Below are positions 10,139 through 32,783 of a stretch of DNA of 64,000 nt, piece after piece (within the stretch, counting starts at the first letter, position 1; each line of letters begins with the position of its first letter). This DNA comes from Rhodospirillum rubrum ATCC 11170. Its GTDB lineage: Bacteria; Pseudomonadota; Alphaproteobacteria; Rhodospirillales; Rhodospirillaceae. The stretch covers positions 1,907,001-1,971,000 of the forward strand of contig NC_007643.1 of the NCBI RefSeq assembly GCF_000013085.1, written 5' to 3'. The translations under genes and the position numbers were made by a program. The notes beneath the pieces were generated by a model. It made no database searches. It worked only from the letters and a program-made list of their open reading frames with translations, and was not told where the DNA came from.

Positions 10139-10582
10139 ATGTCGGTCACCAACAAGGTGACAGGCGCGTCAAGCGCCTTCTCGGCGGCCGCCAATACCCG
10201 GCTGGGCGAGGGGATTCGCGCCGCCACGGCTTCCCAGTCCTTTGCGCCGGTCCTGGAAATCGCCGCGAGCGCCCAATCGGGCCCCGAGGAAAGCAGCCTG
10301 CGCAATAATGACTGGGGCGGAACGGGGGCCGAAGGCGATGTCGGCAAGGATACGTCCTCTCCGCTGCCCAATCTGCCGGTGCGCATGGGCTCGGTGTTGG
10401 CCTCCAACAGCTTTGCCCAGATCCTCTTCGACTTTCGCGTGCGCGAGCCCTCGCGCTCGGCCCTGCCGATACGAACCGCCAGCCGCGAGGGGACCGATGT
10501 CTATCAGTCCAATATCCGCGTGTTGGCCGCCCGTTTTTCCGGCGAAAAGACGACCGGAACCGTGGTCAACCGGTTCTATTGA
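10139..10582 (+). CDS. Conserved-looking protein of unknown function, 147 residues
   Basis: I do not recognise a family. The N-terminal 60 residues are rich in Ala, Ser and Thr and look disordered, including ATASQSFAPVLEIAASAQSG. The C-terminal half is more ordered, with PVRMGSVLASNSFAQILFDF and a final TGTVVNRFY. There is no signal peptide or membrane segment. The start ATG 10139 has an AAGGGAGAC-type site upstream. The flexible N-terminus and short structured C-terminus would suit a small regulatory or export-related protein, but this is only an impression. Confidence 0.7.
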   Translation: MSVTNKVTGASSAFSAAANTRLGEGIRAATASQSFAPVLEIAASAQSGPEESSLRNNDWGGTGAEGDVGKDTSSPLPNLPVRMGSVLASNSFAQILFDFRVREPSRSALPIRTASREGTDVYQSNIRVLAARFSGEKTTGTVVNRFY

Positions 10583-27675: not shown

Positions 27676-27752
27676 GCGCCCTTAGCTCAGTTGGATAGAG
27701 CACTCGCCTTCTAAGCGAGATGTCGCTGGTTCGAATCCAGCAGGGCGCGCCA
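27676..27752 (+). tRNA. tRNA-Arg(TCT)
   Basis: 77-base cloverleaf: acceptor GCGCCCT/AGGGCGC, D-arm GCTC..GAGC, anticodon stem CTCGC/GCGAG with loop CTTCTAA (anticodon TCT), T-arm GCTGG TTCGAAT CCAGC and encoded GCCA end. An accessory region with foreign character begins directly behind it, so its 3' end may be an integration site. Confidence 0.97.
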
Positions 27753-28148
27753 TTTCCCTACAGAACTTGAACGCCGAAAACCGCCGATTGCCCTCCGCTG
27801 TACGCTATTGGCCGCCGAACGTACGCCCTTGTATCTGGCAGAGGCTGGCCCGCGCGCAAAAGAGCGTAGAAACAGCGGCGTTCGACGGCGGAAAAATTCG
27901 AATCGCATTTGGTAAAGTGATTGCCACAAGAATACGTTGCGGCGCGCTATGGCGGGAATGCGCGCCCATTTCAGTCATAATAGCTATAGCTTGATTGAAG
28001 GCGAGACTGCCGTTCGACTTTCTGATCATGCAGCCCGAAAAGATTCGCTTGAGCAACGGTGCGGAGTGGTCGCTTCGTGTGGCGGCCACAGGTGGCATTA
28101 GGGCTTCGGAACACGTGGGATCGATCAGTTTCCAGGCAGTGCGCACCG
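27753..28148. other. Noncoding stretch at the left end of the island
   Basis: About 400 bases between tRNA-Arg and the 3' end of the Avs-like gene. Base composition is lower in GC than the flanking core genes. No integrase fragment or credible gene was recognised, although gene decay is plausible in this position. Confidence 0.4.
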
Positions 28149-31100
28149 TCACGCGTCAACGCGGATGTCTTTGCCCTCGTCATCGCTCTCGTCGTCGTCA
28201 TCGTCGGGCAGACCTTCGACACTTTGCGCGAACAAAATTGCGCGTTGCCGCGGCGACGGCTTGTCGAACGTTTCGAACCGGTCCAGCGCCTCGAGCGCGC
28301 CGCCGTCCGAGACGAACAGGCGGGTGAAGGCGCGCCGGCCGCCGAAGCCGTCGCTGTGGATCACGCCGAACACACTTTTTTCGCCAGCCACCGCCCAGAC
28401 GGCGACTAGCCCCTCGCGCTTGAGCAGATCGAGGAACGCGCTGCGCTCGACGAGCGCCACGCTGTGTCCTGCCCGATCAATCGACGGGTCGATGAAAACG
28501 ACGTCGCCTGCCGTGTTGCGAAATTCGATCGACCGGCCATCAGAGAGGCGAAGGTCGAGCGCTGCCATCAGCCAGCCGGCGGGCAGGTTGAGCGTAATAT
28601 TCTGCGAGATCGAGTAATCGTAGCCGCCGGCTTCGGCCATATATTCGGCGGTCGGGGGACGTACATCGACGCCGGGTGCCTGCCAGTCGCCGCCATTAGG
28701 CCTCCAATCCTCGATCCAGCCATCGTCGGTACGATCGGGCCAGGCCCAGGCGTGTTCACCGAGATGCATGTGATAGCCGTCGCCGCCGATCGGCATGTCG
28801 TGGTTTCCGGTCATATGGATGCCTCTCAACCGATCGAGCAGCGCTTGGCGGTCGCAGGCGCGAACGATCGTGCAGCCAATCCTCCGCCAAGCGTCCGAGC
28901 GCACCACGTCCCGGTTTTCCTCCCAGATCTCGAACCCTGTCAGCACGAGCCATTGACGGCCGTCCGGATCCGCGACTTCGACATTATCCGGATCATCGAG
29001 CATCGCTGTTTCGGAATTCAGCCAGGCAAGCGCCTCGCTTGGCGTCGCCGCTTCGATGCTCGGCCGATGGGGTGCCCAGAAGCTGCCTTCACGGGGGCTA
29101 CGCCAGCCATCTTCCTCGGCGCGCTCTCGGAGCATCGATGGATCTAGGTTGCGCAGGCGGCTTGGGCCGATTTCCTCTTCGTTGGGCAATATTGCGAGAT
29201 TGTCCTCCATCCGCGCCGCCAGCTCAAACGTGGCGAGCCACTGATATTTCTTGCCGACGCGCTCGATCTCATGGCTATTGCGCCCGGTGCGGATTTTGCG
29301 GTCGAACGGCTGATGCAGTGCTTCCGACCAGCCGAGATCGTGTGCGCGCCACGTCACCCAGCGCCGCGCCCAGGCGAGATTGAACATCGCCGGCCCGTCG
29401 TGCGTTGCGAAGCTTTGGTACATGCCCTCGTCGCGCCAGCTTTCAGCTCGAGCCCGCCAATCCTCATAACGTTCTGGGCCGATCGCCTCGCGAAATCTTT
29501 GCTTCGCTGCCCGCAGATCGTCGCGGCGATCCGCAGGCACAGGGCTTGCCCGTGATCCTTTGATTGCGTCGATCTCGGCCTGAAGCGCCGTGTAGGCGGC
29601 CAGTTCCGGTTCGCCCGCATTCGCCTCGAACTCGGCGAGCCACTGGTCGCGCAGATCCTGGGCGGTCGGCAGCGGATCGGTCCCGCGCGGCGCTGGACTG
29701 TACCGCCTCGCCACCGTATCAAGGACATAGCGTGCAAAGTCGCCATCCTTGAGCGAACTGACGATATCGTCCCAAAAGCGCTCGCCGTCCTCGCCAAAGG
29801 CGACAGTGAACCCGGCCATCTGTTCGTCCGAGATCCGCTCGATTGGCCATGGGCTGGAATAGGGCGGTCTGGTCGATGCGAGATCGAACCCCACGGGCAG
29901 CGCGCCGTGCGCCTCGGCATAGCCGATCAACCCAGTGGCATGATCGCGCAGCAGCAGATTGGTGGGCGGCGTGCCGCCCGCGAACAGATCCGCTTGCAGC
30001 GTTTCGGCAGCCTCGCGCAGCGCGCCGCTGCTCCAGCGGCCCTGCATCGCCGCACCAAACAGAGCGGCGGCAAGGCGCTCGACCACATACAGATCGTCAA
30101 GACCGGAAAAGGCCCGCCATAGCTTGTGCGCCAGTCCGGCACGGTCGGCTAACAGCAGGACCAGCGCCTTGGTCGCCTTGTCCCGCAATTTCCGCTGGGT
30201 GGTGGTGAGGAACCAGCTAAGCTGGATCGCGGTGAGTTCGGCACGCTCGGGCGCGATACCGTCGGAGTCGGCGGCGTAGACCCAGTCGATCAGGTGGAAT
30301 GCCGCATCGGGCGTTACCGCAAGATGGACCGACCAGCGGGCATCGCGCTCGGGCATCGGCAGTGCGCGCAGCTCCGCGTCAAGGTGACGGACATTGTTGG
30401 GGTGGCCTGGCTCCGTCGATAGCGCGATGAGCGTGTCGTAGCGAAGAGTCGCACCGCCGATGGTATCGACCAGCTCCCACGTCCGTGCCGTGATCGCGTC
30501 GAGACGCCGAACCTGAAGGCTCTGCATGAAGGCCTGATCTGGCTTCAATCCGGCCGGCAGGCCAACCAGGTCGGGAAGCTCTATGCCGAAATTCTCGGGG
30601 AGTTGGACGGCCAAAGCTTCGAGCAGTCCTGGGATGATCCAGCTATCGGGGTTGTCGAGCGCGTTATGCAACGGTGTTCCGGGAGTGCACAGTCCCGCAG
30701 CGCCGCCGGCGCTGCTGCGCGCGAGCAGATCCGCCACGACCGCATGGTCGCCCATGCGCTCGAAGGTGAACCGCACCGCCTGTGCGTTCGCGCGCGACGG
30801 GCCGATCACTGACTCGACCGCAAGCATGCCCTCGGTCTCGAGCTGGAACAGCAGGTCGTCGTCGGTCGACCGGCCCGGCAGCACCGCGTGGACGATCTCC
30901 TCGGCGCGGTCGAGCGTGACGTCAGCGCGTCCGGCGTCGGCCATTTCACGCGCCAGCGCGGCGAGTGCCTGGTGTGCCGGGTCGCGACCGGGCGGAATCT
31001 TGAGCTGGCGATGGACACGTCGCGCCACTGTGGCGCCATAGGCACGGAAGACATCGGTCACGCCTCCCAGATGGCGTGCGAGCAGGGCTTCCCCCTCAAA

Positions 31101-32624
31101 GGCGAGTGCGTCGCAATAGAGGCGCAGAAACAAAGGAGTCCGGAACTCGGCGACCTGGAGCGGTGTCTCCGGCAAGGTCATGCCGCGCTGTCGCAGATAG
31201 TCGCGCACTTCCGCGACTGAGAAGCCGCGATGCGTGATCCGCGGCAGCTTGGTGTCGTCGAGCGTGTCGGGGACGATGAGTTCGAGATAGGTCGTCCGGC
31301 AGGAAAGGACCACCGCGACCCACGGATAGTCCTTGATGTCATGGAGCAGCCCAGTCAGGCGCTCGGGCCAGATTGCCTGGCCGCTTTTCTCGTTGAGCGC
31401 ATCAATGGCGATGAGGGCACGGACACCGGCAGCCTCGCCCGCGGCGTTCAGTACGCCGAGGAACTGGCCGACTTCGAGGTGGCGGGGAAGATCAAGGGCT
31501 CGCAGGATTTGATCCCAAGGCTCCGCGTCGACCAGCGTGCCGCCGAGAACCATAAGCGCCGGACGCCCGGCCGCGAGCTGGCGCGCGCAGGCGTCGGCGA
31601 GAAGGTGTGACTTGCCGCTGCCGGCGGCGCCGGAGATGAGCAGAGACTGGCTGTTCAGCAATGTCCAGTGCGGTTGACGAAGCTCGATCATGACAGCACG
31701 AAGTCGCGACGCGAGATCGGATACGGCAACCATGCTGGCACTTGGATCTTGATCGCCATTTGTCGTACCAAGTGCATCATGCAACTGAAAGGCTGCGTCC
31801 GTTGCAGCGTGAACCAGGTCGAGGAGCTTCGAGGCTGGAACCATGCGCGAGCGCGCCGCATCATGTAGCGCCGCCGCAGCGGCGTCGCACGCGCGCTCGA
31901 CCGGGGTGCCGGAAATCGGGAAAGCGAGATCCGCTGCGGTGCCCACCGCTTCCCCGAGTGTTTCAAGCTCGGCAAAGAGGTCGGGGTCGCCGGTGACGGC
32001 GCGAAGCGCCCGACCGATCGGCAGGTCGATATGAACCACGGGATTGTAGCGCTCGCCGAGGTCGGCCTTTACGCGGGCGAATTTGGCGTCGAACCAATCT
32101 TTCGTGAGCAGGCGCTGGTCGAACCAGAACGCGACACGGCCTGCAGCACGGGGATTGCTGGCGGTCAACCGCTGCCGCAGCGCATGGGCATCCCAGCGCT
32201 CGATCTCGATTGTGCGGCCAGCCGTTGCCTCCTTCGTTATCTGATCTGCGCGCCAGCTCTGCCATTTGTCGAACGCCGTGGTCGTATCCTCGACGCGAGC
32301 ATCGGCCAGATCGAAGGGAAAGCAAGCGATGAACTTGGCCATCTTCGGATGCTTAACCAGCGCTGTGTCGAGCGACTTGCTGAGCGAGCGCAGCATCGAG
32401 TCAGTGTCCCAGTAGAATTTGACCTGCCAGCCGATCTCGGACCCGTCCGTCAGCGTCTCGTAGCATTCGACGCCGGCATCGCCACCGCGGCCTTTGCGAT
32501 CGAAGCGAATGCGGATTGTCGATGCTTCGTCGGCGGCCAGTTGGCAGCAGAGTTCTTCAAAGGCATCAGCCTGAGTATTGCCGCGGAGGCGGATCTGTTT
32601 GAAATCGATGTCGGGCAGGGGCAT
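28149..32624 (-). CDS. Avs-like STAND NTPase with N-terminal PD-(D/E)XK-type nuclease
   Basis: 1491-residue protein. Residues 1-170 resemble a Cap4/Mrr-type nuclease: ADAFEELCCQLAADE, then GRGGDAGVECYE (Asp49) and EIGWQVKFYW (Gln67-x-Lys69), a PD-(D/E)XK pattern. A P-loop core follows: Walker A SGAAGSGKSHLLADAC at about 331-346, Walker B LIAIDALNE at about 405-413 and VVLSCRTTYLE behind it, the STAND/NACHT style of Avs antiphage proteins. The remaining 900 residues are helix-rich, without transmembrane segments, and end in an acidic tail (DDDDDESDDEGKD). ATG 32624 is chosen for AAGGAG five bases upstream; a longer frame starts at 32669. Codon use is less GC-rich than the core genes. Avs proteins sense phage terminase or portal and kill by DNA cleavage; that function here is inferred. 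Confidence 0.75.
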   Translation of the reverse strand: MPLPDIDFKQIRLRGNTQADAFEELCCQLAADEASTIRIRFDRKGRGGDAGVECYETLTDGSEIGWQVKFYWDTDSMLRSLSKSLDTALVKHPKMAKFIACFPFDLADARVEDTTTAFDKWQSWRADQITKEATAGRTIEIERWDAHALRQRLTASNPRAAGRVAFWFDQRLLTKDWFDAKFARVKADLGERYNPVVHIDLPIGRALRAVTGDPDLFAELETLGEAVGTAADLAFPISGTPVERACDAAAAALHDAARSRMVPASKLLDLVHAATDAAFQLHDALGTTNGDQDPSASMVAVSDLASRLRAVMIELRQPHWTLLNSQSLLISGAAGSGKSHLLADACARQLAAGRPALMVLGGTLVDAEPWDQILRALDLPRHLEVGQFLGVLNAAGEAAGVRALIAIDALNEKSGQAIWPERLTGLLHDIKDYPWVAVVLSCRTTYLELIVPDTLDDTKLPRITHRGFSVAEVRDYLRQRGMTLPETPLQVAEFRTPLFLRLYCDALAFEGEALLARHLGGVTDVFRAYGATVARRVHRQLKIPPGRDPAHQALAALAREMADAGRADVTLDRAEEIVHAVLPGRSTDDDLLFQLETEGMLAVESVIGPSRANAQAVRFTFERMGDHAVVADLLARSSAGGAAGLCTPGTPLHNALDNPDSWIIPGLLEALAVQLPENFGIELPDLVGLPAGLKPDQAFMQSLQVRRLDAITARTWELVDTIGGATLRYDTLIALSTEPGHPNNVRHLDAELRALPMPERDARWSVHLAVTPDAAFHLIDWVYAADSDGIAPERAELTAIQLSWFLTTTQRKLRDKATKALVLLLADRAGLAHKLWRAFSGLDDLYVVERLAAALFGAAMQGRWSSGALREAAETLQADLFAGGTPPTNLLLRDHATGLIGYAEAHGALPVGFDLASTRPPYSSPWPIERISDEQMAGFTVAFGEDGERFWDDIVSSLKDGDFARYVLDTVARRYSPAPRGTDPLPTAQDLRDQWLAEFEANAGEPELAAYTALQAEIDAIKGSRASPVPADRRDDLRAAKQRFREAIGPERYEDWRARAESWRDEGMYQSFATHDGPAMFNLAWARRWVTWRAHDLGWSEALHQPFDRKIRTGRNSHEIERVGKKYQWLATFELAARMEDNLAILPNEEEIGPSRLRNLDPSMLRERAEEDGWRSPREGSFWAPHRPSIEAATPSEALAWLNSETAMLDDPDNVEVADPDGRQWLVLTGFEIWEENRDVVRSDAWRRIGCTIVRACDRQALLDRLRGIHMTGNHDMPIGGDGYHMHLGEHAWAWPDRTDDGWIEDWRPNGGDWQAPGVDVRPPTAEYMAEAGGYDYSISQNITLNLPAGWLMAALDLRLSDGRSIEFRNTAGDVVFIDPSIDRAGHSVALVERSAFLDLLKREGLVAVWAVAGEKSVFGVIHSDGFGGRRAFTRLFVSDGGALEALDRFETFDKPSPRQRAILFAQSVEGLPDDDDDESDDEGKDIRVDA

Positions 32625-32783
32625 GACGGCTCCTTGGTAAGGTCCTGATCTAGGGATCCAACTACTCACAACGATGGCGCTAGGTGAGATGCCCTATGCG
32701 TGAGCTCACGCTGCACAGACCTCGGTTGGCCGGGCCATCCTAACAGCCTCGGCGTAGCTATGCACATCCTTGACGGTCAGAAC

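Follow-up and report, generated by a model that had tools for sequence, protein, structure and literature searches.

The window, that is, the whole 64,000-nucleotide stretch of Rhodospirillum rubrum DNA that was analysed, carries on its minus strand a large avs2-like gene; a tRNA-Pro and a tRNA-Arg lie to its left, and the gene is found past the tRNA-Arg. The features of the locus are the following:

28149..32624, minus strand, stop codon included: avs2-like gene of 1491 aa (P0001), defined by its open reading frame, an AAGGAG before the ATG at 32624 and a PADLOC Avs2 match over residues 4-1457
32124..32624, minus strand: N-terminal nuclease domain of the Mrr/Avs4-type PD-(D/E)-QxK class, about residues 1-167, with E23, D49, E53, Q67 and K69 invariant in 13/13 aligned proteins
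30630..31739, minus strand: STAND NTPase region, about residues 296-665 (limits approximate), with the P-loop at 332-339, Walker B/DALNE at 408-412 and SCRTTY at 441-446
28152..30629, minus strand: residues 666-1491, predicted to form an array of helices and, towards the C-terminus, a region with beta structure; presumed phage-protein sensor, modelled with low confidence in its C-terminal part
28152..28205, minus strand: acidic C-terminal tail, last 18 residues; of 12 relatives, the three nearest have a shorter version of it
27676..27752, plus strand: tRNA-Arg(tct), outside the system itself, past which same-genus and same-family genomes diverge from the window

The open reading frame listing and the translation confirm the gene as a minus-strand frame running from 32624 to 28149. 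The listed frame (28149..32669, minus strand) starts at an upstream GTG, but the ATG at 32624, with AAGGAG ahead of it, is the preferred start and yields 1491 residues. No sigma-70-like promoter was found for the gene. The original prediction had quoted several motifs, all of which are present at their positions in the translated protein: the P-loop SGAAGSGKSHLL (residues 331-342), LIAIDALNE (404-412), SCRTTY (441-446), and the putative nuclease residues D49 and Q67-V-K69. In an alignment of the window protein with 12 relatives of 26-76% identity, G332, G335, G337, K338, D408, N411, E412, R443 and Y446 are invariant in all 13 rows, as are, in the same full-length proteins, E23, D49, E53, Q67 and K69 of the nuclease and the invariant residues of a C-terminal ERxxKKYQ motif (1121-1128). 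Since their residues are kept in every row, the quoted motifs are more than chance resemblances. A decayed or inactive copy is very unlikely, given that these residues are conserved and that no stop interrupts the single intact frame of the gene; read in the same register, the plus strand contains several stops. The acidic tail, DDDDDESDDEGKD, had been regarded as unusual, a view that fails on comparison: it is a variable end that, among the 12 relatives compared, occurs only in the three nearest and is shorter there, and it was rejected as a functional novelty because it is limited to four close sequences and differs in length among them.

Assignment of the protein to a family is straightforward in PADLOC. 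The whole protein, searched at E ≤ 1, retrieves six families, all of them Avs2, and no better Avs type; the Avs2 model PDLC02164 scores 1570 bits, with residues 4-1457 aligning to positions 2-1501 of the 1504 in the model. The NCBIfam Avs2 equivalog NF041813 scores 714.8 bits over residues 294-1422, which falls short of its curated cut-off of 1000 bits, and because this cut-off is missed we file the protein, on sequence grounds, as an Avs2 in PADLOC's sense only, outside NCBI's strict naming rule. Searched in full against Pfam, the protein gives no match above cut-off, while a sequence search of the PDB returns one significant match, the solved Avs2 9o4e (residues 316-1441, E 3.2e-112). With a profile built from the 13 aligned rows, the match to 9o4e extends over residues 173-1487 (9o4e 164-1483, E 1.4e-302), which establishes homology between the long C-terminal region, proposed at the outset as a candidate sensor, and that of a solved Avs2. 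Walker A, Walker B and the conserved arginine of a STAND core are likewise found in 13/13 rows and in the alignment with 9o4e. The claim that some 900 residues lack a recognised motif thus holds for Pfam, whereas PADLOC, NCBIfam and the PDB contradict it. Resemblance to Avs4 is restricted to a weak match of the N-terminal region (NCBIfam Avs4, E 0.11, residues 18-99), with no full-length match to an Avs4 profile. An undescribed subfamily, as initially envisaged, is ruled out by the PADLOC Avs2 matches of both the whole protein and residues 1-167, the N-terminal domain being common to four of the six matched Avs2 models. By these matches, the window gene is a further member of the known antiphage family Avs2, and not a new kind of defence.

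Taken alone, residues 1-167 match the N-termini of these four Avs2 models with E values of 1.7e-55 to 6.7e-24, and other PADLOC models only weakly (Avs4, 0.0051; Lamassu LmuA, 0.015); as judged from these profiles, the nuclease type of the window protein is a common one among the matched Avs2 models. A profile of 14 N-terminal regions finds Avs4 (8dgf) with an E value of 1.2e-10; on 9o4e, the same profile detects residues 164-194 only, at 0.0097. Because it misses the N-terminus of 9o4e, the behaviour of the effector is borrowed here from Avs4 and Mrr, not from 9o4e. Among ten N-terminal fragments searched against Pfam, none gives a match above cut-off, the one relevant hint being Mrr_cat_2 (E 0.01) in the relative L006. 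An AlphaFold2 model of residues 1-200, built from seven sequences (pLDDT 83.3), shows the alpha-beta-beta-beta-alpha-beta order, with helices at 18-32 and 74-91 and strands at 38-43, 54-58, 63-68 and 95-101. Foldseek gives no match to this model at E ≤ 0.001, its best one being 8dgf at 1.2e-3. When Foldseek's own candidates were re-aligned structurally with a second aligner, from which the Z scores derive, Avs4 8dgf came first (Z 12.6, rmsd 5.0, 164 residues aligned), followed by LlaBIII (9.5), MspJI (9.0), the BspD6I small subunit (9.0) and FokI (8.8), with restriction enzymes as a group at Z 8.1-9.5. The core order in the model, the Z scores and the presence of D49, Q67 and K69 together fit a PD-(D/E)XK nuclease, in line with the alignment of the model to the nuclease end of Avs4 and to restriction enzymes. 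The original prediction would have fallen had the N-terminus lacked a PD-(D/E)XK fold, a check that it passes. Its core, a STAND NTPase of Avs-like type that carries such a nuclease at its N-terminus, is therefore borne out by PADLOC, 9o4e, the profiles and the structural alignment.

The QxK of this nuclease had been considered an oddity. Q67 and K69 are invariant in 13/13 rows, and PD-QxK is described as the active site of EcoKMrr and MspJI in the available text of PMC12707154; the motif is thus ordinary, and its reading as an exception was rejected on both counts. In a further set of 14 N-terminal rows, made up of 11 of the 13 aligned proteins and of L051, L053 and L054 from viral contigs, E23, E53, Q67 and K69 are again invariant, and D49 is replaced by N in L051 and L054. 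These two divergent sequences (L051:6542-7171 and L054:184-813) keep E53 and QxK, and their metal-binding set may differ, since N replaces D49.

Residues 296-1491 were modelled from nine sequences with moderate confidence (mean pLDDT 68.8). The model contains an NTPase, an extended array of helices and an end with strands that is only weakly predicted. Foldseek returns 32 matches at E ≤ 0.001, with the NLR protein NLRC4 on top, Avs4-portal sixth and Avs3-terminase seventh. The matches to NLRC4, Avs3 and Avs4 have low TM-scores (0.14-0.21) and are equalled in score by many Cdc6/ORC-type AAA+ chains; 9o4e is absent among the best 50 rows. This result agrees with a predicted STAND/NLR-type core, the details of which the model does not fix.

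Other N-termini occur on the same chassis. A search of viral contigs gave at least nine loci, among them L046 (1484 aa), which scores 1756 bits to PDLC02164 and of which a stretch corresponds to part of the 9o4e sequence. PDLC02164 matches the N-terminus of L046 with its positions 58-161, at only 27 bits (2.1e-7), and no other model does so at E ≤ 0.1; this N-terminus thus appears to keep some similarity to the window nuclease family. At L049:6044-10057, an Avs2 chassis carries an N-terminus that matches the PADLOC REase model PDLC02399, of Argonaute-associated proteins (5.2e-20). Effectors are likely exchanged on the Avs2 chassis, since L046 and L049 carry other or barely matching N-termini.

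The genomic surroundings of the gene were compared with stretches from four relatives. Two of them, G001 from the same genus and G040 from the same family, keep the left-flank genes and both tRNAs, and beyond their tRNA-Arg they match no window ORF of at least 100 residues; in G030 and G016, the left-flank genes are kept, with no tRNA in the stretch taken. In G001, the right flank of the window is matched over 159 bases only, and this match is on a different contig. Positions 27676-27800 have no exact repeat of at least 15 bases on either strand of the rest of the window (13-base matches occur). The PF00589 integrase domain is detected at seven places in the genome, none of which is in the window; the nearest, which scores below its cut-off, is some 93 kb away from the gene. 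An integrative element at the tRNA is thus unsupported by these sequence comparisons. The gene also appears to stand alone, as had been proposed: in the roughly 6 kb that flank five close loci to either side (the window, L004, L005, L016 and L017; ORFs of at least 40 residues, E ≤ 1e-5), no conserved partner was found, the sole similarity between flank genes being that of the window ABC-transporter ATPase to an L005 gene (38-40%). A window ORF of 115 codons (27805-28152, minus strand) has a GTG that overlaps the avs2 stop codon, and nothing matches at its place in the flanks of L004, L005, L016 and L017.

By Pfam, the neighbouring genes are of ABC-transporter, MFS, LysR, response-regulator/GGDEF and hemerythrin types. 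This isolation, together with a PADLOC scan in which none of eleven neighbouring window ORFs had a match (some being overlapping alternatives, and the transporter, LysR and GGDEF genes lying outside the scan), would suit a regulator of the STAND type whose role is in housekeeping or transcription and not in phage defence. We nonetheless regard such a regulator as exceedingly improbable in view of the full-length match to an antiphage family, the conserved nuclease residues, and a patchy distribution in which two of the 98 relatives' genomes match, one being the window's own, hence one of 97 others. Very close copies moreover occur in three alphaproteobacterial lineages, one of them on a plasmid typed as conjugative, by type I restriction genes.

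These closest sequences are from Sphingomonas endophytica (L005), a Devosia metagenome-assembled genome (MAG; L004) and an Acetobacter ascendens plasmid (L016), at 75-76% identity over nearly full length. They have the same architecture and acidic end as the window protein but shorter tails, and share no neighbour genes with it except for the ABC-type ATPase similarity in L005. In a chassis tree of 18 rows (the 13 proteins and five of the at least nine viral-contig loci), the window protein groups with them with 100/100 support and end branches of 0.015-0.043, a grouping that is unchanged, with weaker support, in an effector tree of 16 rows. The shortness of the end branches suggests recent transfer between the Devosia, Sphingomonas, Acetobacter-plasmid and window lineages. 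DNA just outside the gene is common to the Sphingomonas and Acetobacter copies only (169 columns upstream at 75%, 73 downstream at 84%); on the Sphingomonas side, it corresponds to L005:5827-5994 and 10449-10521 and hints at the size of a transferred piece. Within L016:4870-20232, the Acetobacter copy lies between a Tn3-family transposase and the type I restriction genes.

More broadly, at least seven of 385 genomes of the class match at E ≤ 0.001, a lower bound since at most two candidates per genome were scored: the window's own, two long matches (G229 and G429) and four short ones of 52-57 residues (E 1e-4 to 9e-4). A genome-contig search matched two named genomes and a plasmid search 61 records, 38 of them from Burkholderia. 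The phage search gave one record, Staphylococcus phage UPMK_1 (MG543995.1:103678-104706), with a partial match that is 24% identical over residues 666-992. Within L018:2277-16442, the Azonexus Avs2 has an integrase gene close by and, next to it, a large gene for a NACHT-type ATPase that matches Avs1b only weakly (5e-6) and may be another STAND sensor.

The genome itself encodes a second Avs2, at C2:4301253-4305737 (L033:11227-15738), which is 41% identical to the window protein and scores 1676 bits to PDLC02164. Its neighbours include an argininosuccinate synthase gene and, about 2.6 kb off, a HEC-01A-like AAA gene (PDLC04177, 542 bits); a phage-type integrase lies about 13 kb away. A genome search with the HEC-01A model also gives matches in 14/14 control genomes, so weak matches to this model mean nothing.

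Divergence between the two copies bears on the trigger of the window protein, as identity to the paralog is just about 41% over residues 661-1420. This would be expected if the same Avs2 machine had, in this clade, a sensor for some phage protein that is not terminase, in the way that Avs4 recognises portal or that a Klebsiella Avs2 also responds to Ksap1; the available text of PMC12724215 and PMC12931631 reports that the latter Avs2 appeared to bind Ksap1 too. Yet the chassis, sensor region included, aligns with the solved Avs2, and the C-terminal part has residues kept in 13/13 rows, for example those of ERxxKKYQ; a different trigger is therefore unlikely. We also offer, as a doubtful conjecture, that the alphaproteobacterial clade formed by the window, Devosia, Sphingomonas and Acetobacter-plasmid sequences might represent an Avs2 lineage that has been spreading recently and whose Avs2 chassis bears a nuclease of the Avs4 type, and that the two diverged Avs2 copies of this genome might divide phage triggers between them.

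The window gene probably encodes a one-polypeptide Avs2 antiphage system that combines sensor, NTPase and nuclease, and in which terminase-triggered DNA cutting would abort infection. Family membership, domain order, the conservation of catalytic and ATP-binding residues and the predicted nuclease fold are established here; for the trigger, oligomerisation, DNA cleavage and abortive outcome, we infer from studied family members. In the text available from PMC12724215, Avs1-3 target the terminase large subunit, and E. coli Avs2 senses via its C-terminal domain, after which ATP-dependent trimerisation activates the N-terminal effector; nuclease effectors of Avs1-4 cut phage and host genomes, according to the accessible part of PMC12931631. 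By analogy, the C-terminal helical region of the window protein would have a conserved protein of the phage as its ligand, with the terminase large subunit as the likeliest candidate; on binding, the STAND NTPase core would take up ATP and oligomerise. Oligomerisation would bring together several copies of the Mrr-type PD-(D/E)-QxK nuclease, which would then cut phage and host DNA, and infection would abort.

With the window gene, the Avs2 family gains an intact and divergent member whose nuclease front end is defined, a front end that the solved Avs2 9o4e lacks by profile search. It thereby provides a useful annotation and a modest resource for studying effector exchange among Avs sensors. 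Compared with known systems, its STAND NTPase and C-terminal region align with those of Avs2 (PDLC02164 and 9o4e), and its N-terminal domain is that of four of the six matched PADLOC Avs2 models, whereas the N-terminus of 9o4e is not found by the nuclease profile of the window family. With Avs4, solved bound to phage portal (8dgf), it has in common the N-terminal nuclease domain, both by profile (E 1.2e-10) and by structure (Z 12.6); the sequence resemblance is, however, confined to the nuclease region, and the PADLOC families listed for the whole protein are Avs2 only. Finally, the Mrr-family endonucleases EcoKMrr and MspJI share the PD-QxK site (MspJI at Z 9.0) but, as far as the available text describes them, combine it with winged-helix or SRA-like DNA-binding domains, whereas the nuclease of the window protein is fused to a STAND sensor.
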